The notes below the pieces were generated by a model. That model had not been told where the DNA came from. It made no database searches and worked only from the letters and a program-made list of their open reading frames with translations. A stretch of 64,000 bases of DNA from Gammaproteobacteria bacterium (GTDB taxonomy: Bacteria > Pseudomonadota > Gammaproteobacteria > SZUA-229). The position numbers and the translations under genes were made by a program. The stretch is from positions 1-64,000 of the forward strand of contig JADGFA010000009.1 in NCBI GenBank assembly GCA_016744065.1. The letters run 5' to 3'. Every line of letters starts with the position of its first letter. Positions within the stretch are counted from its first letter, which is position 1. Positions 31,867 through 50,487 of this stretch are shown here, piece after piece.

Positions 31867-32814
31867 TTAAAACGTTTTTATTTTCAACTCACTCTCTGTA
31901 GCTGCCACAAAACCATAAGACTGGTAAATTTGTTGCGCTTCCTGTGTTGCCAGATACTCTAAAAACAAATTAGCATTACGACTATTCCTGCCTTTATTCA
32001 ATAAACCAATTACATAAGAAACTTTATCCTGTTTATTAAATGGGGCATCTATTTTTACACCATCAATATCTCGCCCCTTTGATTTTGCATAAGCGACTTC
32101 TGTTGTCCAGACTATCCCCACATCAGCCTGATTATTTTCAATACGATAAGGCGTTTCACGATGGTGGCGAGTGGTAAACCAGGTTTTTTCAGGTACCGCC
32201 CAACATTCCTTGCATTTTTTATTACCCGTTACCTGATCATATATACCCAGGTCTTTTAGCATTTCACTGCCATAAAATTTAAAGATACCTTCAGTTAATG
32301 GATTTGGATGAGACTGCACAAGATCGGCTCTGCCTAAATCACCTACACCTTTAATATTTTTAGGATTACCTTTAGCCACCATTAATTCCAGTTTATTATG
32401 TGTATAGATAATATACTTATCCAACAAACCTTTTTTATTTAATTTTTTCAGATGATTTATTTTAACACTTGCATATAAATCCGGTGTCATTGAGGTATTT
32501 ACACCGTTAACACCGCCCTGCTTCAACAACTGTTTTTTTAATATCTGGCCAGGAGGGATTGTTTCAACATAAACACTTTTCACATTTTTATGCTTTGATT
32601 GAAAATCTTTTATCAACTCTTCCATTACCATAAACTGATTACCTGCAAGATACATAACCAGATCAGATGTATACGAATCTTTTATTTCACCATAGCCTGT
32701 TTTTCCTTCAACATGAAAAGTTCGATAATCATGTTCATGACCGGCATCTTTTGCAGCAACAACTGATGAAAACATAAATGCAAAAAATATAATTATGACA
32801 GGTTTTCTTTTCAT
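31867..32814 (-). CDS. Periplasmic solute-binding protein, ModA/SBP_bac_11-like, orphan
   Basis: 315 residues with signal peptide (MKRKPVIIIFFAFMFSSVVAA). The mature protein follows the type II binding-protein plan: DLVMYLAGNQFMVMEELIKD near the N-terminus, LMVAKGNPKNIKGVGDLGR in the hinge region, a KKCKECW pair of cysteines near 200 and NNQADVGIVWTTEVAYAK near 230. These are features of molybdate/tungstate or sulfate-type binding proteins. Several His (HEHDYRTFH, TTRHHRE) are unusual and could bind metal. No ABC permease or ATPase gene is adjacent, so it may act as a sensor or ligand carrier. Good RBS (AGGAGA). The neighbouring ECF sigma unit suggests shared regulation (inference). Confidence 0.75.
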   Translation of the reverse strand: MKRKPVIIIFFAFMFSSVVAAKDAGHEHDYRTFHVEGKTGYGEIKDSYTSDLVMYLAGNQFMVMEELIKDFQSKHKNVKSVYVETIPPGQILKKQLLKQGGVNGVNTSMTPDLYASVKINHLKKLNKKGLLDKYIIYTHNKLELMVAKGNPKNIKGVGDLGRADLVQSHPNPLTEGIFKFYGSEMLKDLGIYDQVTGNKKCKECWAVPEKTWFTTRHHRETPYRIENNQADVGIVWTTEVAYAKSKGRDIDGVKIDAPFNKQDKVSYVIGLLNKGRNSRNANLFLEYLATQEAQQIYQSYGFVAATESELKIKTF

Positions 32815-33093
32815 CTTTATCTCCTATGAGTTTTTCATACATTGTTTTTATATCGCAGTTTAATAAACTGGCACCATACCTATTACTTAAACCCTGCCAT
32901 AACTTACCCGTCAGGTCACGTTGAACTAACTGGCTTATGGATAAAACAGGAAATTAACTTAATAAAAGAGGGCCTAAAACCAAACACACTAAAATAATAC
33001 GTAGATACTTAATAACTAAAACGAGGAAGCTGTCGACAACATCATGCTTTACCTCACAAAAAACATAATAATGCAGCTTGAATACATGCACTA

Positions 33094-33792
33094 TTATATT
33101 TTTATATATGACCAGCCCTGATGAACACGTTTAACAACCTGATCAATTGCTGTCGCGCCCTGTTGAACAGTGGTTAATAAATGGGGCTCAATACCATTTT
33201 CACGCAGATTTTTTATACCATTACTACAGGCAATAAACTTAATATTTGGATAATCCCTGCTCAACTGTTTAACCCGCTGAATATAGGGTGACCTGTCTTC
33301 ACGAAACAAATCCAGCCCACCGGCATTAGCTAATACCTCTAACTGAATATTTTGTTCTTTATTCTGGTAACTTGCCAACAGCGTTTCAGCTTGATCCAAC
33401 GTTTGTTTAAATTTATTTTTATCATGCACATCTATATGTAAAATATACTTGCCGGGTTGCTCTGTGATTATTTGCATCGCCGGATTGAATAATTCTACAT
33501 CGGCTATTTTTTCATTATGTATCATACCTGCACTAAACCAGCCACCGGTAAACGTGAGCAACAATAAAATTGAAAATACGGCATAACGCATATTGCCCGA
33601 TGTATACTGCTGCTTTACAGGTGGTACTATATTCTGATAAGCAGACTGCAACTGTGCTTTTAATGTATACAGATCATTCAGCGCCTGCTGTAGCTCAGCA
33701 TCTTTCTGTAATTCTTTTTCAAACTCTGTTTTCTCACTGCCCTGCAATTCGCCATCGGCATAGGCATTGATAATTTCATTAGAAAATTCCAT
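33094..33792 (-). CDS. Anti-sigma factor with periplasmic DsrE-like domain
   Basis: 232 residues. Residues 1-65 are a short cytoplasmic helical segment starting with INAYADGEL, the pattern of anti-sigma domains but without the zinc HxxxCxxC. Residues about 70-92 form one membrane helix. Residues about 110-232 form a DsrE/F-like domain (KYILHIDVHDKNKFKQTLDQ, LEVLANAGGLDLFRED, KFIACSNGIKN with Cys189). The start overlaps the sigma factor stop (TAATG), so the pair is translationally coupled. DsrE domains bind or relay sulfur on a Cys at this position. The simplest reading is a membrane anti-sigma factor whose outer domain senses a sulfur signal or partner. Its outer domain aligns with the secreted protein at 34614-35051. 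Confidence 0.8.
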   Translation of the reverse strand: MEFSNEIINAYADGELQGSEKTEFEKELQKDAELQQALNDLYTLKAQLQSAYQNIVPPVKQQYTSGNMRYAVFSILLLLTFTGGWFSAGMIHNEKIADVELFNPAMQIITEQPGKYILHIDVHDKNKFKQTLDQAETLLASYQNKEQNIQLEVLANAGGLDLFREDRSPYIQRVKQLSRDYPNIKFIACSNGIKNLRENGIEPHLLTTVQQGATAIDQVVKRVHQGWSYIKI

Positions 33793-34385
33793 TATTTTTT
33801 CACCATTCTTAATCTATTTTCAGTACGGCTAACAGGTACTTTAGTGACTAAATGTGTTTTATTTGCAGATTCTATATGATTCTTTTTTATGCTCTTACTT
33901 AGCGCTTTTCTAGCACGGTTTAATCGACTCATTACCGTACCAATTGGCACCTGAAGTATGTCGACCACTTCACTATAACTCAAACCATCAAGATCAACCA
34001 GACTCACAACCTGACGCTGCGCATTAGGTAAACCAGACATACCAACGGCAACTATCTGATCTATTTGCTGCAGCAGCATTTCATGTTCCGGCGAGTCATT
34101 ACCACAAATGATAATTTGCTCTATGTCCTCACTTGGTCGTGTTTTACGTAAATGTCCCAGCCAGGCATTATTTAAAATTGCATATATCCAGCCATTAAAT
34201 GCCGCCTCATCCTTCAATTGATCCAACTTCTGTAATGCGCGTATCTGTGCTTCCTGCACCAGATCATCCGCCAGCATATGATCATGACACCAGGCATAAG
34301 CCATTCTATAAAGCCTTACTCGACTTTGCTCAATACGCTTTACCAGTGCCACTTTACGACAGGCCAATCTTATTATTTTCACCAT
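33792..34385 (-). CDS. ECF-type RNA polymerase sigma factor
   Basis: 197 residues. Region 2 lies at about 22-88 (RLYRMAYAWCHDHMLADDLVQEAQIRALQKL and FNGWIYAILNNAWLGHLRK) and region 4 at about 122-175 (LPNAQRQVVSLVDLDGLSYSEVVDILQVPIGTVMSRLNRARKAL). No region 3 is present, as usual for ECF factors. It is coupled by a one-base overlap to the DsrE-type anti-sigma factor. Likely targets are the divergent DsrE-porin genes and possibly the binding protein. I could not find a convincing pair of matching ECF promoter elements by eye. Confidence 0.93.
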   Translation of the reverse strand: MVKIIRLACRKVALVKRIEQSRVRLYRMAYAWCHDHMLADDLVQEAQIRALQKLDQLKDEAAFNGWIYAILNNAWLGHLRKTRPSEDIEQIIICGNDSPEHEMLLQQIDQIVAVGMSGLPNAQRQVVSLVDLDGLSYSEVVDILQVPIGTVMSRLNRARKALSKSIKKNHIESANKTHLVTKVPVSRTENRLRMVKK

Positions 34386-34613
34386 ACAGGCTCTCTATTT
34401 TCTACATCTTTTTCAGCTACTAATATAGAGATACACCTATGCCAGTATTTATTCCAGTTTTTCTATTTATTTTTTACCAAAGCATTAGATAACAACAATA
34501 TTATTAATATCTAATCTATTGATTTTATTGAAATTAATGGAATATATCGCCCGCCTCTAACATCTCTATCTATGAAATGCACAAAAAAATACCTGAGGAG
34601 GTCTATACACATA

Positions 34614-35051
34614 ATGAAAGCTATAACATTAATTTTAACGCTACTGCTAAGCCTGGTTTGTTTACCATCATTTGCAGACAGCAACTCAAAGCCTTTTGCA
34701 GAAAAACATATCGTACTGCAAATAAGTGACCCTAACCCATTCAAACAAACACTGGTTTTAAATGTCGCCAATAACCTGATTAAACATTATGGACAGGACA
34801 AGGTCGATGTAGAGATTGTCGCTTTTGGCCCTGGCTTACGATTGCTGATGGCGGGTAACAGTAATCAGTCACGCATAACAGGTTTAAGCAGTGCAGGCGT
34901 TCAATTTTCTGCCTGTAAAAATACCATCGCTGGTTTTGCTCGGAAACTTGGCCACACACCTGAGCTTGTACCTCAGGCGGTACCTGTAAACGCGGGGGTC
35001 GTACGTATTATTGATCTCACCGCTAAGGGTTACACCCTTGTTAAACCATAA
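34614..35051 (+). CDS. Secreted DsrE/F-like protein
   Basis: I start at the ATG at 34614, behind GAGGAGG at 34594-34600. It opens a clear signal peptide (MKAITLILTLLLSLVCLPSFA). An upstream ATG at 34572 would put 14 charged residues in front of the signal. The 145-residue product has a DsrE fold: HIVLQISDPNPFKQTLVLNV, then VDVEIVAFGPGLRLLM and VQFSACKNTIAGF with Cys101 at the family's sulfur-carrying position. It is a periplasmic relative of sulfur-relay proteins. It aligns over its length with the outer domain of the divergent anti-sigma factor. The porin follows after 22 bases. Confidence 0.85.
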   Translation: MKAITLILTLLLSLVCLPSFADSNSKPFAEKHIVLQISDPNPFKQTLVLNVANNLIKHYGQDKVDVEIVAFGPGLRLLMAGNSNQSRITGLSSAGVQFSACKNTIAGFARKLGHTPELVPQAVPVNAGVVRIIDLTAKGYTLVKP

Positions 35052-35073
35052 AAGACTGTAAGAGGAAAATTTA

Positions 35074-36417
35074 ATGAATATAAAAAAAATTACAATGCTG
35101 GCCGGGTTAACCTTAGTAAGCTCTCAGGTTTATGCAGCCAACTGGCTAGCATTACAGGGCACTGAAAAACCAGGTTCTTCCGCACGCGCCAAAGTATGGG
35201 GTTTTATACAGCCCGAATACCAGAAGACAGACGGTACAAAATTACCTGCAGGCACGCCCTTTGCTGGGCAAAATATGTCTCCAAACATGATAAAGCCCGA
35301 CAATAAATCAAATGAATCATTTAATATTCGTCGTGCTCGTGTCGGTGTTCGCGGTACAGGCTTCCCCCTTGACGACAAAGTTAATTACTTTTTTCTGGCT
35401 GAGTTTGGCCATAACGGAATTACCAAATTAGGAAAAACGGGTGTCGCACTAACGGATGCCAGCATCACTTTAAACCATATGCCGGGCGCACGCATTCGAG
35501 TGGGACAGTTTAAAACACCCACATCTGAAGAAGGGCTACAGGCAATTCACGTATTTAACTATGTTAACTTCACCAATATAACCAATCAAATGATGCTGGA
35601 ACGCTTTACTGATGGTGATGGTTCAGATGGAAACGGCAGACCCGTCGGAGCACCCGGCAGCGCAGTAACAACAAACCCCAACGGCCCTAATGGTTCTGTT
35701 GGTGCATTCCGTGATCAGGGCATTCAGATATTTGACACCTTTAATGTTAACAACTGGGAACACAGTTATGCCGTTATGTATGGCAATGGCAACGGCCTTA
35801 ACCGTACTGACAACGACAACAATAAAGATACCTATTTATACTGGTCATCTGAAATGGTGTTTGGTGGCCAGGGTGCACGCCGGGAAGGTATGAAACTATT
35901 TGCTTGGAATCAGTCCGGTAAGCGTACATTAACAACGTCTGGTGCAGGTGAATATGATCGTGACCGCAGCGGATTAGGTGTTACTTTCCTGAAAGGAAGG
36001 TATCGTGCGGCGGCTGAATATATGACAGCTGATGGAATGATCTTTAATGGCTCAGATGCCGCAGCCGTTCCTGGTTCAACAAATAATGCAGGCGATAATA
36101 TTTCCACCATTAATGTACTCACTGATGATGAAGCAGATGGTTATTATTTAGACTTTGGCTATAGAGTCTTACCTAATCTGGAACTGGACATTCGTTACGA
36201 TGTATTAAACCGTGGCACAAAAACCACAACCGGTGAACGTACATTTGATACTGTTACTCTAGGTGCTCAATACTTTTTCAATAAAAAAACACGTATCACT
36301 TTTAACTACGAAATACGTAATCAGGATGCCCCTGGCTTCCCTGATACTGCGCCACCAAACCTGATTGCCGATAATCTGGATGACAGGCTATCTTTACAAC
36401 TATTGGCTATATTTTAA
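35074..36417 (+). CDS. Outer-membrane porin (OprO/OprP-like)
   Basis: 447 residues with signal peptide (MNIKKITMLAGLTLVSSQVYA) and GAGGAAA ribosome site. The N-terminal strands contain FNIRRARVGVRGTGFPLDDKVNYFFLAEFG and RIRVGQFKTPTSEEG, the pattern of phosphate-selective porin O/P family barrels. Alternating polar/apolar strands continue to the C-terminal LQLLAIF, ending in Phe as outer-membrane proteins do. The substrate is unknown. Co-transcribed with the secreted DsrE-like protein and terminated by a strong hairpin. Confidence 0.88.
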   Translation: MNIKKITMLAGLTLVSSQVYAANWLALQGTEKPGSSARAKVWGFIQPEYQKTDGTKLPAGTPFAGQNMSPNMIKPDNKSNESFNIRRARVGVRGTGFPLDDKVNYFFLAEFGHNGITKLGKTGVALTDASITLNHMPGARIRVGQFKTPTSEEGLQAIHVFNYVNFTNITNQMMLERFTDGDGSDGNGRPVGAPGSAVTTNPNGPNGSVGAFRDQGIQIFDTFNVNNWEHSYAVMYGNGNGLNRTDNDNNKDTYLYWSSEMVFGGQGARREGMKLFAWNQSGKRTLTTSGAGEYDRDRSGLGVTFLKGRYRAAAEYMTADGMIFNGSDAAAVPGSTNNAGDNISTINVLTDDEADGYYLDFGYRVLPNLELDIRYDVLNRGTKTTTGERTFDTVTLGAQYFFNKKTRITFNYEIRNQDAPGFPDTAPPNLIADNLDDRLSLQLLAIF

Positions 36418-44132: not shown

Positions 44133-44588
44133 TTAGTGCATCATCACTTTTTTTACTATTAATTCCAGCTCTTCAAGATTAACAATACTATACGCCCCAT
44201 CCGCCATTATAACTTTGTCGCCAATTGCCGGATGTGTTATTGCTTCCTTATTTAATATAACATCTTCTTCTTTAACATTCACAACTGACGGCGTACCCTG
44301 CATCAAAATAGACAGGTAAGGAAAATTACTATCTTCTCCAATTGAAAACAGGATCGCAGCCTTAACATTCCCTGTAGCCAGGCTCGGCATACGAACATTG
44401 CCCATTGCTTCAAAAGAAATCAAGGGTACAGAATGTCCACGCCAGTCTAAATAGCCCAGCATCCAGCCTGGCTTGTTCGCCACATTTATAATGTTTTTTA
44501 TAGGTACAATTTCTGCCACCGATGCATTCGGCATTAACAGTTCATCGCCATTAATTTTTAATACTATGCATTTTATTTCTTCAGGCAT
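44133..44588 (-). CDS. CheW-like adaptor (ChpC-like)
   Basis: 151 residues forming one CheW domain: CIVLKINGDELLMPNASVAEIVP at the N-terminus and GWMLGYLDWRGHSVPLISFE in the middle. It overlaps the chpA stop by 8 bases and ends the pil-chp operon. In Pseudomonas a CheW-like ChpC lies at this end of the cluster; identity with ChpC is inferred from position. No ChpB (methylesterase) or PilK gene is found here. Confidence 0.8.
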   Translation of the reverse strand: MPEEIKCIVLKINGDELLMPNASVAEIVPIKNIINVANKPGWMLGYLDWRGHSVPLISFEAMGNVRMPSLATGNVKAAILFSIGEDSNFPYLSILMQGTPSVVNVKEEDVILNKEAITHPAIGDKVIMADGAYSIVNLEELELIVKKVMMH

Positions 44589-47500
44589 CAGCTAGTAACT
44601 CATGAATATTTTTGAGTAATTCATCTTCCTGGAATGGCTTACCCATATATTTATTTACACCAATTTCCATTGCTTTATCTTTATGCTTGGCACCGCTTCG
44701 TGATGTAATCATAATGATTGGTAAATCAACAAGGCGTGGATCATTTCTCACATGAGTTGCCACCTCATAACCATCCATTCTTGGCATTTCAATATCTAAC
44801 AACATAACATCTGGTTTAATTTCCTGTAACTGTGATACAGCATCTATACCGTCTTTTGCCGTTACAACTTTCATGTCATGGCGCGTTAGCATACGCTCAG
44901 TTACTTTACGTATTGTAATTGAATCATCGACTACCATAATGATGGTTTCATGTTTTTCTTCAACCGCAGATACAGCATTACTATCGAATTCATCAGTAGC
45001 TGAATCTGAAATATGAAACAATGAATCACCAAGCACCAGGGAGTTCATTTCCAGAATAATCACTACACGCCCATCACCCAGAATGGTTGCACCGGATATA
45101 CCCCGTACAGTACTGATTTGTGTTCCAACTGGTTTTACAACAATTTCACGCCGCCCAATTAATTCATCAACATGCAATGCAACACTCTGATCGCCTGTTC
45201 GTGCGAGTAACACAGGGAAAAGCTGACCCTGTCTTGCGTAGTCAGGTTGTATGCCTGTTAATAGTGCTCCAAGGTGTTTTAATTCATATGAACTGCCAGC
45301 AAACTCGTAACTGCTTTCACCACTATTATAAAACTGTTGTAACTCAGGCCCCGATAAGCGCACCACACCTTCAATACTGTTCAACGGAACCGCGTATATA
45401 TCCTCACCCACATTAACAAGAAGTGCATGATTAATAGCCAGTGTAAGTGGTAAGCGTATTTTAAATGTAGTGCCCTGGCCCTGCACGGTATCTATTTCAA
45501 GTACACCGCCTAGCTGCTTTATTTCACTATCGACAACATCCATACCAACACCACGGCCAGATATTTGTGTTACTTTTTCTGCCGTGCTGAAACCTGCTTC
45601 CATAATATATTGCAACACATCATGATCGCTTATTTTGCTATCGGCAGTTAGCATGCCTTTTTCCATTGCTTTTTTACGAATAGCATTAACATCAATACCA
45701 CGGCCATCATCTGTAACAGTGATAACAACATCTGAACCTTCACGATCAACCATTATTTTCAGAGAGCCTGTTTCCGACTTTCCTGAAGCATTACGCTCTT
45801 CAACTTTTTCAATACCATGTGCAACGGCATTTCGCAGCATATGTTCCAATGGTGCGACAATTCGATCAAGTACCGTTCGATCTACTTCTGATGTTTCACC
45901 TACAATTTCAAGCTCTACTTCTTTACCTAACTCACGAGCCGTTTGACGTACAATTCTACGCAACCTGGAAGCCAGCCCACCGAAGTGAACCATTCGAGTA
46001 CGCATCAACCCTTCCTGTAGTTCCGTACTTACTCGAGATTCCTGCAATAATAATGTTTCCGAATCTCGAACTTCTTCAGACAGCAAATCTTTAATACTTT
46101 CTATATCACCTACTGTTTCCTGCAAACTTCGAGATATCTGTTGCATTGTAGAAAATCTATCCATTTCTAATGGATCAAAATCCTCATCATACTGATCTGA
46201 TTCTTTTTCATACCTGGATAATATCTGCGCTTCGGTTTCAATTGATAGCTGACGTAACTGTTCACGTAAGCGTATTACTGTTTGATTCATTTCTGATAGA
46301 TTGAAAGAGAAATTCGAAATTTGCTGGCCCATACGTGCATGGTAAACACTCACCTCACCAGCATGATTTACCAGATCATTTAATAGATCAGAACGGACAC
46401 GTACCTGTTCAGTTGCGATAGTATCTTTCTGTTGAGGTACAATTTTTTCCTGAGGTACATCTGTTTTTTCCAGAACAAGATTAGATATTTCGTCAGGCTC
46501 TGAATATGCATTTTTCTTTTCACTATCAGGTGAGCTAACAGCTACATGTTCTTCAGGCTCATCCAGGTCCTGTAGTACTGACTCTGGATTTAATTCGATT
46601 TCATATTCAGCATTATCATCTAATACTATTTCTTCGATTTCAGCTGTAGGATTTTCAGGGTCAACGGGAATTTCAAAACCGAAGTCCTCATCAGGCTCAA
46701 CTTTGAAGTCATCTGATAATACAGCTTCCTCAGAAAGCTCTACAGCAAACGTATCCTCATCATCGGTGTTTTCTATTATTATGCTATCACTGTCCTCTGC
46801 GAACTCTGCAATAGAGAGCCCCGGGTCTCCACCTTCTTCATCAGAGGATGAATCTTCTACGTTATTTGAAGTTTTTTTTCCCTCTCGAAGTGCGTCTATA
46901 TGCGATATGAGTGCATTATCAGAAGATAATGGCTGTCTGTCTTTTACTCTGGATAACATATCAGACAATTGATCTAATGCATCATGAAACGCTTTAGATA
47001 TTTCCCTGGAAAATGCCTGCTGTTTATCATTAACCACCACCACTAATGATTCAAGTGCATGGGTTAAATCACCAACAGGGCTCAGATCAGCCATGCGAGC
47101 ACCCCCTTTCAGGGTGTGCAAATACCGCTGCAAATCAAGAACGCTTTCTTCATCACTATTGTCAGAACTCCAGCGTTGCAAACTATTTTCACAGCTATCT
47201 AACAGCTCTTCTGCTTCTTCCAGGAATATTTCAACCAGCTCATCATCAACATCAGAGTAACTAACCAGAGATTCCTCTGTTGAAACCCTGGCACTCTCGT
47301 CCCCTGATGAAACGCCTTCTATTTCACCTGTCTTTTCCAGAACCATTGGTGAATTTTGCTTTTCATTAGCCAGTTCACTAATTCTTGTTAATAATATTTC
47401 ATCCGATTCAAGCTGATGATTTTTTTGCTCCAGAGCTGCCAACATAGCAGAAACTTTAGCTGTTACGTCACTCACCAGTTTCACACCCGAGCGCGAAATA

Positions 47501-50487
47501 CTTAAATCATCATCATTGAGATATAAACGAACATATTTTTCCAGTTCGCCACAAAGCTCCGCTATTTCATCAACGCCAGCCGTTCGCGCACTACCAAATA
47601 AAGTATGCAATGCACGTAACAGTTCACCGCTTGCTGTTAGTGGTTCAATTGACTGATTATGCCGCTCTAGCATGTTGTTTATCTGTTGCAGATGACTTTC
47701 AGATTCACCCTTAAAAATACCAAACAACACAGGATCAATATATATTTGCAGGGTATCGTCTTCTAATAAATCATTTTCTACCTGGATACTTTCAGGCTTA
47801 CTTTCTTCTGATGAAAGCTCATCGATTATATCGTCAAGCGCAACTTCTTCATGATCATCATCTGATGATGCAATTTGTAACGCTTCCAGCTCATCTGTTA
47901 AATCAATATCAAATTCTTCACCAAAATCTTCATCTGATTCTTCTAGTTGATTATCACCTATGGATATTTCTTCTGCTGCCTCTTCTCCAAGCATGAGCTC
48001 ATCTTCAGAAATTTCATCCATCACCTCATCTTCTGAAATTTCTATTGTTTGAAACTCATCAACATCCAGATCAACTTCAGCATCCTGAACATCTAATTCT
48101 TCAGGTGCTATTTCCTCTATTTCCAGAACGGGTGTTTCTTCAAGCTCAATTTTTTCTTTTACTACTTCCTTTTTTACTGTTTTTTTAGCCGAAGTTGTTC
48201 CCTCACCCGCCTCCGGCTTTTTCCACTTTCCCAGCAGTTCTGTCCTGTCCATTAACTGGTAGATATTTGGGATAGGATCTTTATTACCTTTTAATTGTTC
48301 AATTAACTGAGGCAGAACACCTAGCGATTCATTTAAAATATTAAACACATCCTGTGTAAGTGGCCGTGATTTATCAATTACACGATTAAGCATGTTTTCG
48401 AAATTCCATGCAAACTCACCTATAAGTTCTGCACCAATTAAGCGACCACTGCCCTTTAGCGTATGAAATGAGCGGCGAATGGTACTTAAAGATTCTTCAT
48501 TACCATGATCACGCTCCCAAAGCGGAATCTGCTCATTGAGTGATGCCAGCTCTTCCATTGCTTCTTCAATAAAAATTTCTAAAATTTCTTCATCCGCATC
48601 ATCACTTAAAATAATGTAGCGCTCTTCCTCTATAGCACTGGCTACGTCTAAAGACTCCTCAGCAACTGGCGCCAATTCAACCTTTTCTTCTGAGACCACC
48701 TCTTTGGCTTCCACAGCAGGAGCAACTGGCTTCTCACTAATAACGCTCGCTTCAGATGGTGTTTTTTCAACACCGGACTCAACGGCTATGGCCAATAAGC
48801 GATCTGCTGCCAGGTCCCCAGAACTCATCGACAGTTCAAGGTCCGGGCGCCCTTCTAATACCGCTTCCAGGTAGTATTCAATGCTGGTAACAACATCGGC
48901 CAGATCATTTTGTACTGAAGCTTCTGGTACCTGACCGGCATTCAGCATAACTTTTGAAACATATTCACGAACTGAATTAGTCTGATGTTTCAATTTCTGA
49001 ATAGGCAACATAAACATTGCCCCGTCAACTTCTTCCAGCCTCTGTAAGACTATTTCAAGCAAACTCTTATCAACTGGGTTTTCCAGATAATTAAGAATCG
49101 CCAGTCTTGCATCATTGAAATCCTGCAACGCTTCACGTATTACAGCCGATAACACTTCAAGGTATTCACTTTCCGGCATATCCGCCAGATCCCCAACACG
49201 ATGTGCTGGCTCATCAGTTCCTATTGAAGATCGGTTAGCAATAAAACTATTTAATTGTGATTCGACTGCAAGCAATACGCCCGCCACACCCATAATGAGC
49301 TCGTCGCTTGCCTCTTTTGATTTAGATATAACCTGATCGATAACTTTTTGTTGCTCAAGCACCATTTCCCGCGGCATACCCAAACCTAACATAGACAGGG
49401 TATCTGCGATCTTGCCTAATAAAGCAGGTAAATTACCTAATCTTCCAAGGTCTCGAACTTCACTGTGAACAAAAATTTCCAGTGAGTCTTTAACTTCTAA
49501 CAGGTCTTCACGAATACCTGCCGAAACTGTTTCAAGTAACTCTGAATTTAAACCACCCATACCAGAACGAGCTTCTTCCAGTTCGGTATCACCTGGCAGC
49601 AACTCTTCTAAGCGATAGGTTGTTTTAATATTTTTAACACGAGGAGAATCAGTTGTGATTCGGGCAACATAATAAAGTAGATTTTTTAACAGATCATTAG
49701 GTGTATTTTTAGCAAAGGCGACTTCTTCAGTATCAATAAGCTGCTTTATGCTTCGATCGACCTGACCGAGTAGCATCTTAATACTCACATTGGCATCTAT
49801 GCCATTTTGAGTAAGCCCTTCAACCAATGCAGAACTAATAGACCAGATACGCCGAATGGAAGGCTGTGCTGATTTTTTTTCAAGCTCTCCCAGAACGGCA
49901 AGAATGCGCTTTAAGCTGGCTGCAACTTTCTGCCCTTTAAACCAGCCCAGTAAGCCAATTTGATAATGGGGGCGTAGTTTTTTTGCACTAGCTACAAGCT
50001 GACCAGCCTCAATATCAACTCCAGGTTGCTCACCTTCGGTATTGACATCAGGGAAGAATAATACATTTTCAGATAATAAGCTGGCATTGCGAGAAGCACG
50101 CAAGTCATTAAGCAATGGCAATAACACCATTGGCACATCTTTTCTGCCCGACTGCAAGCTTTCCAGATAATCTGGCAATTGCAGCATAGAACGCATTAAG
50201 ACATCGTATGCATCATCAACCTTATCAATTTTGCCATTGAGTAACGCATCGGAAACTTTTTCCATTTCCTCTGCAAGCTGTGCTGCGCCATATAATTCAA
50301 CCATTTGCAAAGTACCCTGTACCATATGCAAATGCTCAACAGATTCACGTAGACGATCAGCCTCATCGGTATTTTCAATATATGCCGACAAGGAAGTCTG
50401 CGCTTCCTGTAATATCAGATCAAGCTCTTTTTTGACCCAACGTAACGAATTATATTCAACAGTATCCTCTGTTTTCATCTCTGACAA
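44581..50487 (-). CDS. chpA: Pil-Chp chemosensory hybrid kinase ChpA
   Basis: A 1968-residue CheA-type kinase for twitching motility. Order: an N-terminal FimL-like segment with EHLHMVQGTLQ (about 51-61); Hpt domains with HTLKGSGR near 673, HTLFGSAR near 961 and HTLKGGAR near 1123, joined by long acidic linkers; dimerisation segment about 1380-1500; kinase domain with EHMLRNAVAHG near 1548, DDGRGID near 1591 and GRGVGMD near 1644; CheW domain about 1686-1830; receiver domain about 1848-1968 with phospho-Asp in LLDIEMP near 1896. Phosphate goes to PilG, PilH and its own receiver. The start is a TTG with GAGG 7 bases upstream; an ATG three codons later is possible. Pseudomonas ChpA is longer with more Hpt domains. 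Confidence 0.95.
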   Translation of the reverse strand: MSEMKTEDTVEYNSLRWVKKELDLILQEAQTSLSAYIENTDEADRLRESVEHLHMVQGTLQMVELYGAAQLAEEMEKVSDALLNGKIDKVDDAYDVLMRSMLQLPDYLESLQSGRKDVPMVLLPLLNDLRASRNASLLSENVLFFPDVNTEGEQPGVDIEAGQLVASAKKLRPHYQIGLLGWFKGQKVAASLKRILAVLGELEKKSAQPSIRRIWSISSALVEGLTQNGIDANVSIKMLLGQVDRSIKQLIDTEEVAFAKNTPNDLLKNLLYYVARITTDSPRVKNIKTTYRLEELLPGDTELEEARSGMGGLNSELLETVSAGIREDLLEVKDSLEIFVHSEVRDLGRLGNLPALLGKIADTLSMLGLGMPREMVLEQQKVIDQVISKSKEASDELIMGVAGVLLAVESQLNSFIANRSSIGTDEPAHRVGDLADMPESEYLEVLSAVIREALQDFNDARLAILNYLENPVDKSLLEIVLQRLEEVDGAMFMLPIQKLKHQTNSVREYVSKVMLNAGQVPEASVQNDLADVVTSIEYYLEAVLEGRPDLELSMSSGDLAADRLLAIAVESGVEKTPSEASVISEKPVAPAVEAKEVVSEEKVELAPVAEESLDVASAIEEERYIILSDDADEEILEIFIEEAMEELASLNEQIPLWERDHGNEESLSTIRRSFHTLKGSGRLIGAELIGEFAWNFENMLNRVIDKSRPLTQDVFNILNESLGVLPQLIEQLKGNKDPIPNIYQLMDRTELLGKWKKPEAGEGTTSAKKTVKKEVVKEKIELEETPVLEIEEIAPEELDVQDAEVDLDVDEFQTIEISEDEVMDEISEDELMLGEEAAEEISIGDNQLEESDEDFGEEFDIDLTDELEALQIASSDDDHEEVALDDIIDELSSEESKPESIQVENDLLEDDTLQIYIDPVLFGIFKGESESHLQQINNMLERHNQSIEPLTASGELLRALHTLFGSARTAGVDEIAELCGELEKYVRLYLNDDDLSISRSGVKLVSDVTAKVSAMLAALEQKNHQLESDEILLTRISELANEKQNSPMVLEKTGEIEGVSSGDESARVSTEESLVSYSDVDDELVEIFLEEAEELLDSCENSLQRWSSDNSDEESVLDLQRYLHTLKGGARMADLSPVGDLTHALESLVVVVNDKQQAFSREISKAFHDALDQLSDMLSRVKDRQPLSSDNALISHIDALREGKKTSNNVEDSSSDEEGGDPGLSIAEFAEDSDSIIIENTDDEDTFAVELSEEAVLSDDFKVEPDEDFGFEIPVDPENPTAEIEEIVLDDNAEYEIELNPESVLQDLDEPEEHVAVSSPDSEKKNAYSEPDEISNLVLEKTDVPQEKIVPQQKDTIATEQVRVRSDLLNDLVNHAGEVSVYHARMGQQISNFSFNLSEMNQTVIRLREQLRQLSIETEAQILSRYEKESDQYDEDFDPLEMDRFSTMQQISRSLQETVGDIESIKDLLSEEVRDSETLLLQESRVSTELQEGLMRTRMVHFGGLASRLRRIVRQTARELGKEVELEIVGETSEVDRTVLDRIVAPLEHMLRNAVAHGIEKVEERNASGKSETGSLKIMVDREGSDVVITVTDDGRGIDVNAIRKKAMEKGMLTADSKISDHDVLQYIMEAGFSTAEKVTQISGRGVGMDVVDSEIKQLGGVLEIDTVQGQGTTFKIRLPLTLAINHALLVNVGEDIYAVPLNSIEGVVRLSGPELQQFYNSGESSYEFAGSSYELKHLGALLTGIQPDYARQGQLFPVLLARTGDQSVALHVDELIGRREIVVKPVGTQISTVRGISGATILGDGRVVIILEMNSLVLGDSLFHISDSATDEFDSNAVSAVEEKHETIIMVVDDSITIRKVTERMLTRHDMKVVTAKDGIDAVSQLQEIKPDVMLLDIEMPRMDGYEVATHVRNDPRLVDLPIIMITSRSGAKHKDKAMEIGVNKYMGKPFQEDELLKNIHELLADA

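Follow-up and report, generated by a model that had tools for sequence, protein, structure and literature searches.

Among the closest described counterparts of the system reported here is the RpoE-RseA pair of Escherichia coli. Our subject is an operon for an extracytoplasmic function (ECF) sigma factor and a DsrE-domain anti-sigma factor, with a divergent operon for a secreted DsrE protein and a porin. It lies in a 64,000-nucleotide stretch of gammaproteobacterial DNA (GCA_016744065.1, contig JADGFA010000009.1, positions 1 to 64,000; hereafter the window). RseA has an N-terminal anti-sigma domain without a zinc motif, and the protein described here a putative one; both have a key aspartate and one membrane span, and both are encoded in an operon with an ECF sigma factor. 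They differ in the periplasm: that part of RseA is not known to be a DsrE fold, whereas here it is a DsrE fold with one invariant cysteine. DsrEFH and TusBCD, the best-known members of the fold, are cytoplasmic sulfur-relay subunits; by contrast, one of the two DsrE copies here forms part of an anti-sigma protein, and the other leaves the cytoplasm as a protein of its own. ECF sigma factors have been connected with sulfur metabolism before. In Arcobacter butzleri, ECF sigma factor 2 activates the sox genes, but that system belongs to another phylum, and the paper mentions no DsrE and describes no divergent DsrE-porin pair (PMC3445524). RpoE1 and RpoE4 of Sinorhizobium meliloti (ECF26) respond to sulfur oxidation intermediates (sulfite); their targets are the sulfite dehydrogenase SorT and its partners, and no DsrE domain was reported (PMC3511301). 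In a limited literature search we found no published DsrE-domain anti-sigma factor, nor a periplasmic DsrE protein discussed with sulfur oxidation and sigma factors, with the caveat that a prior listing by context in the main ECF classification is possible. Within that search, the ECF/anti-sigma pair is of a known kind, and the sensor fold and the regulon were found described nowhere. To our knowledge, little has been established about how Gammaproteobacteria regulate the transcription of their Sox thiosulfate-oxidation genes, and we found no paper on it.

The window is part of a 3.88-Mb genome (completeness 99%) whose order consists of a single family in the set searched. Our results point to an autoregulated ECF sigma/anti-sigma circuit that probably switches on Sox thiosulfate oxidation and accessory functions; that it controls thiosulfate and Sox genes in this group of bacteria is, judged from sequence, quite likely. 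The core of the locus comprises the following features.

33792..34385, minus strand: gene for the ECF sigma factor (Sigma70_r2 48 bits and r4_2 49 bits, E about 1e-12, above the Pfam cut-offs)
33094..33792, minus strand: gene for the predicted anti-sigma factor, 232 aa (RseA-like N-terminus, a single membrane span and a DsrE domain in the periplasm)
33634..33792, minus strand: putative class I anti-sigma domain, aa 1-53 (three helices in the predicted model; Asp13 invariant)
33520..33585, minus strand: transmembrane helix, about aa 70-91 (hydrophobic stretch in 101/101 homologues; model confidence low)
33097..33456, minus strand: periplasmic DsrE/MTH1491-fold sensor domain, aa 113-232 (against 1l1s: Z 17.6, root mean square deviation 1.6, 110 residues)
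33226..33228, minus strand: codon of Cys189, sole cysteine of the DsrE part (101/101 homologues)
34614..35051, plus strand: gene for the secreted protein of DsrE fold (145 aa including the signal peptide; divergent from the sigma gene)
34914-34916, plus strand: codon of Cys101 of the secreted DsrE protein (Cys kept in 64/64 relatives)
35074..36417, plus strand: gene for the outer-membrane porin, Porin_O_P (PF07396, Pfam E 4e-10; dsrE-linked in 61 loci)

All five genes (these four and a binding-protein gene treated below) are open reading frames with the coordinates and strands given in a preliminary description of this DNA. The sigma factor contains sigma regions 2 and 4 only, and its Pfam matches place it among the ECF sigma factors. 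Its gene shares one base with the anti-sigma gene, and the two stand side by side in essentially all loci. The best start of the secreted DsrE protein is at 34614, preceded by AGGAGG. At the N-terminus of the anti-sigma factor, RseA_N (E 0.02) and an NCBIfam anti-sigma model (E 3e-4) both scored below their cut-offs. Asp13, kept in 101/101 homologues, aligned by eye with Asp11 of RseA, a residue (D11) stated to be important (PMC7406223). No HxxxCxxC zinc motif was found in any of the 101 anti-sigma homologues. The RseA-like domain presumably binds the sigma factor.

The preliminary description had proposed a DsrE-like domain in the anti-sigma factor and a matching one in the secreted protein, each with the sulfur-relay cysteine. 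The Pfam DsrE model did not match the sensor domain and gave 15.4 bits for the secreted protein (gathering cut-off 22.7), which may explain why both went unremarked; a second DsrE protein of relatives cleared the cut-off at 43.4. Against the solved MTH1491 (1l1s), phmmer returned E-values of 3.6e-7 for the anti-sigma factor and 8.8e-6 for the secreted protein. The sensor family aligned with the secreted family in hhalign (probability 98.9%, E 1.1e-17), and the anti-sigma profile picked up the secreted protein in its own genome (E 1.1e-12). AlphaFold models had a predicted local distance difference test score (pLDDT) of about 70-90 for the sensor domain and 84 for the secreted protein. These predicted structures matched 1l1s with Z 17.6 (anti-sigma) and 18.6 (secreted), YchN with Z 13.8 and 14.8, and TusBCD and DsrEFH with Z 12 to 13. 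Over the MTH1491/YchN/DsrE-fold proteins compared (1l1s, 2pd2, 1jx7, DsrEFH 2hy5 and TusBCD 2d1p), the fold was thus the same at Z 12 to 18.6. Cys189 of the sensor aligned with Cys101 of the secreted protein (FIAC/FSAC), and both with the cysteine of MTH1491, the sulfur-relay position of the fold. Both domain assignments, the alignment and the two cysteines stand as first proposed; the DsrE proteins may carry or transfer sulfane sulfur. In a domain tree (FastTree, sampled tips, MTH1491 as outgroup), the sensors and the secreted proteins formed separate clades (support 0.89 and 0.98, respectively), from which the fusion appears to be an old event that happened once.

The module is widespread. 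The anti-sigma factor was present in 40 of the 54 genomes of the window's family, and full-length homologues occurred in 66 of 369 genomes of a class-level sample, distributed over 40 families. A scan of genome contigs gave no match when the anti-sigma protein was the sole query; with the DsrE protein of a relative, the matches were all to Gammaproteobacteria metagenome bins, one of them SZUA-229. Among 101 loci examined, 61 had a divergent dsrE gene together with a porin gene, a recurrence far beyond chance; five had the divergent dsrE only, three the divergent porin only and five a co-directional dsrE. The neighbourhood, including the porin named in the preliminary description, is thus strongly conserved in relatives, and the lack of conservation that the description had named as its refutation does not apply. 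Many members of the window's family carry in addition a ResA/TlpA-like redoxin and a second DsrE gene between the sigma gene and dsrE-porin.

We then considered promoters. An unbiased scan for spaced words upstream of the sigma gene recovered GGAAT-N17-CGTC in 41/100 loci; among shuffled words, the best reached 7. A relaxed form of the motif (GGAATA-N15/16-CGTCT-like) was found upstream of the sigma gene in 79/100 loci (shuffles 0-4) and upstream of the secreted DsrE gene in 46/64 (shuffles 0-1). Motif matches in the window are as follows.

34429..34455, minus strand: ECF promoter of the sigma-anti-sigma operon, GGAATAAATACTGGCATAGGTGTATCT
34539..34565, plus strand: ECF promoter of the dsrE-porin operon, GGAATATATCGCCCGCCTCTAACATCT

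Since the shared motif has the form of an ECF promoter, autoregulation together with control of dsrE-porin is the natural reading. It agrees with the preliminary description in placing the secreted protein under the same sigma factor.

The link to thiosulfate oxidation comes from co-occurrence and from the same motif. In the class sample, SoxB was found in 65 of 66 carriers of the module and in 86 of 303 non-carriers (Fisher P 9e-29). Counted by family, the figures were 39/40 carrier and 39/138 non-carrier families (178 families in total being a minimum), so the association extends beyond a single clade. The distance between soxB and the module is under 5 kb in G208, G318 and G219, three genomes that belong to different families. 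One carrier in the sample, G108 (L123), lacks a SoxB match; it has sigma, anti-sigma, DsrE and porin genes.

A stricter motif was searched in 10 genomes of the window's family, with the reversed pattern as control, and gave 50 sites versus 16. Besides the module itself, sites preceded soxB in five genomes of four genera, a gene for a TsuA-like sulfur (thiosulfate) transporter in three genomes, soxX and a second dsrE in two each, and a gene for a TlpA-like redoxin in one. Of the family's 30 top-scoring soxB genes, chosen regardless of motif, 13 had the motif upstream (shuffle mean 0.38, maximum 3 in 500; antisense 0). Outside the family, the strict motif preceded soxB in 9/36 carriers versus 0/32 non-carriers (P 0.002). 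In the window's genus, three congeners have a promoter site before soxXYZ; SoxX, SoxY and SoxZ were confirmed in L194, and a SoxA-like gene, recognised by eye, follows soxXYZ. This Sox regulon was missed in the preliminary description, which had the circuit tuning uptake of a sulfur-containing solute. The link to reduced sulfur stands, but uptake is too narrow a role, as the promoter precedes Sox genes in relatives.

Several observations weigh against Sox control by this circuit. The window's genome has only two full matches among its intergenic sites, namely the two module promoters; its soxX site has the -10 TATTT rather than TATCT (one mismatch), and no motif was found upstream of its soxB. 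The soxX sites of the genus are not independent evidence, because their spacer is conserved too and descent alone could explain them. Outside the family, 27 of the 36 carriers are without the motif before soxB, and the co-occurrence was corrected for phylogeny by the family-level count only. Moreover, in 27 of the 101 loci neither a DsrE nor a porin gene was recognised beside the anti-sigma gene, some of these loci being contig ends. A one-mismatch motif search across the window's own genome was uninformative (230 sites versus 175 in the control) and was set aside.

We propose the following mechanism. The sigma factor would be kept at the inner membrane by the RseA-like domain, with the DsrE-fold domain in the periplasm. 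Periplasmic reactive sulfur (thiosulfate-derived sulfane sulfur, polysulfide or a protein persulfide) would modify Cys189 or be bound there; we slightly favour thiol or persulfide sensing at this residue. The change might pass through the membrane helix, or expose the protein to proteolysis, and so free the sigma factor. Judging from the promoter motifs, free sigma factor would direct transcription of the sigma-anti-sigma operon and of divergent dsrE-porin; its targets in many relatives would further include soxB, soxXYZ(A), the TsuA-like thiosulfate transporter gene and genes for further DsrE proteins and the TlpA/ResA-like redoxin. The porin might admit thiosulfate or other sulfur anions, and the secreted DsrE protein could be a regulon-made periplasmic carrier of sulfane sulfur, possibly feeding back on the sensor. 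These results suggest that this circuit serves many marine sulfur bacteria as the switch for thiosulfate use. They provide a named candidate Sox regulator in about 40 families, with a promoter sequence, likely targets and Cys189 as the candidate residue for sulfur sensing; as far as we found, its sensor would be the first DsrE domain in extracytoplasmic signalling. In its fullest form the proposal is of a widespread, so far undescribed ECF group: a sulfur-carrier fold outside the cytoplasm would sense periplasmic reactive sulfur via one cysteine and govern thiosulfate oxidation, and a soluble homologue, itself a product of the regulon, would give feedback by sulfur exchange with this sensor; in that entirety we regard it as tentative, and rather doubtful.

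The preliminary description had given the secreted DsrE protein another role: the protein, or sulfur that it carries, was suggested to compete directly with the sensor domain or to load it, thereby freeing the sigma factor. The two domains are homologous, DsrE-fold paralogues are known to form hetero-oligomers (DsrEFH and TusBCD, both matched by fold), and a dsrE gene is divergent or co-directional in 71/101 loci. Nevertheless, we obtained no direct evidence for such an interaction. After the signals of sigma, the anti-sigma N-terminus and the porin had been removed, co-evolution between the sensor and the secreted DsrE protein fell to a partial r of -0.01, whereas distance correlations of 0.60 (sensor-sigma) and 0.72 (DsrE-porin) remained. 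The zero partial correlation lends competition or loading no support, though the two may still make contact. In 27 loci neither partner is adjacent, and DsrE could equally be an effector only. We therefore consider competition or loading by the secreted protein doubtful, and think direct action of any kind on the sensor similarly questionable. A different objection concerns the sigma factor: the motif at sox genes might belong to another ECF sigma factor of similar specificity, leaving this circuit in control of itself and dsrE-porin. The lack of a perfect site before soxB or soxX in the window's genome would fit, as would a further ECF sigma gene near some loci, e.g. L052. Restriction of the strict motif before soxB to carriers, nearly all of which have SoxB, makes this unlikely.

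The signal, too, could be read otherwise. A general circuit for periplasmic thiol or envelope redox stress, in which Cys189 senses oxidants or metals and the thiosulfate genes are one part of the response, would accommodate the redoxin partners and the single-cysteine sensor, and thiol-based ECF systems such as SigR/RsrA are known. The zinc motif, however, occurs in 0/101 homologues, SoxB is found in nearly all carriers, and it is Sox and TsuA-like genes that recur as targets instead of genes for repair; we hold this reading to be quite improbable. It is very unlikely that the circuit serves uptake of a phosphate-, molybdate- or sulfate-type oxyanion, with the ligand of the binding protein as signal and the DsrE domain as a structural relic. 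Porin_O_P and a ModA-like binding protein would suit that role, as would the motif that two congeners have before the gene of the latter, but the single cysteine is invariant (101/101), the module is linked to Sox, and the binding protein stands beside it in the window's genus and one other family only. Control of thiosulfate and Sox genes in response to periplasmic reactive sulfur thus remains our preferred reading.

The fifth gene of the locus lies downstream of the anti-sigma gene.

31867..32814, minus strand: gene for a periplasmic oxyanion-type binding protein, ModA/CysP-like (SBP_bac_11, PF13531, E 8e-35; modA and CysP models)

It adjoins the module in three congeners and in L171. In L032 and L033, a full ECF motif (GGAATAAAAA...CGTCT) lies 72-73 nt upstream of the ModA-like gene; unlike in these two congeners, no ECF motif was found upstream of the gene in the window. 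G219 (L171, 4351-8866) has the sigma/anti-sigma operon clustered with soxB, the binding-protein gene and one more dsrE gene, all next to each other.

Some loci have other partners in place of dsrE-porin: a 590-aa protein with a DUF3859 protein, or a SoxB-like protein. The latter, a long (680-724 aa) protein of the 5'-nucleotidase family, is encoded divergently from the sigma gene in four loci. Like the redoxin and second DsrE of the window's family, it belongs to sulfur or thiol functions, which speaks for the Sox reading.

L042 4864-6906, L127 1-1362, L154 4494-6623 and L164 4789-6960: divergent SoxB-like protein (for the two compared with TIGR04486, E about 1e-52, short of the cut-off)

L043, L044, L048, L049, L052 and L177 represent a second type of DsrE anti-sigma locus, whose conserved divergent pair is a protein of 530-590 aa without a Pfam match and a DUF3859 protein. 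GlnE adjoins the module in some genomes and was judged a neighbour rather than a partner. Two small secreted proteins of 120-124 aa (L299 1557-1916 and L305 632-1003), with no family match above cut-off, have an ECF motif 82-88 nt upstream in two genomes and are possible new regulon members. In two congeners, a site lies about 200 nt upstream of a gene for a SoxAX-binding-protein-like product, inside another reading frame. The locus in the window is flanked by what we take to be glutamate synthase genes on one side and a primase-like gene on the other. Elsewhere in the window, an open reading frame of 1968 aa occupies 44581-50487 on the minus strand.

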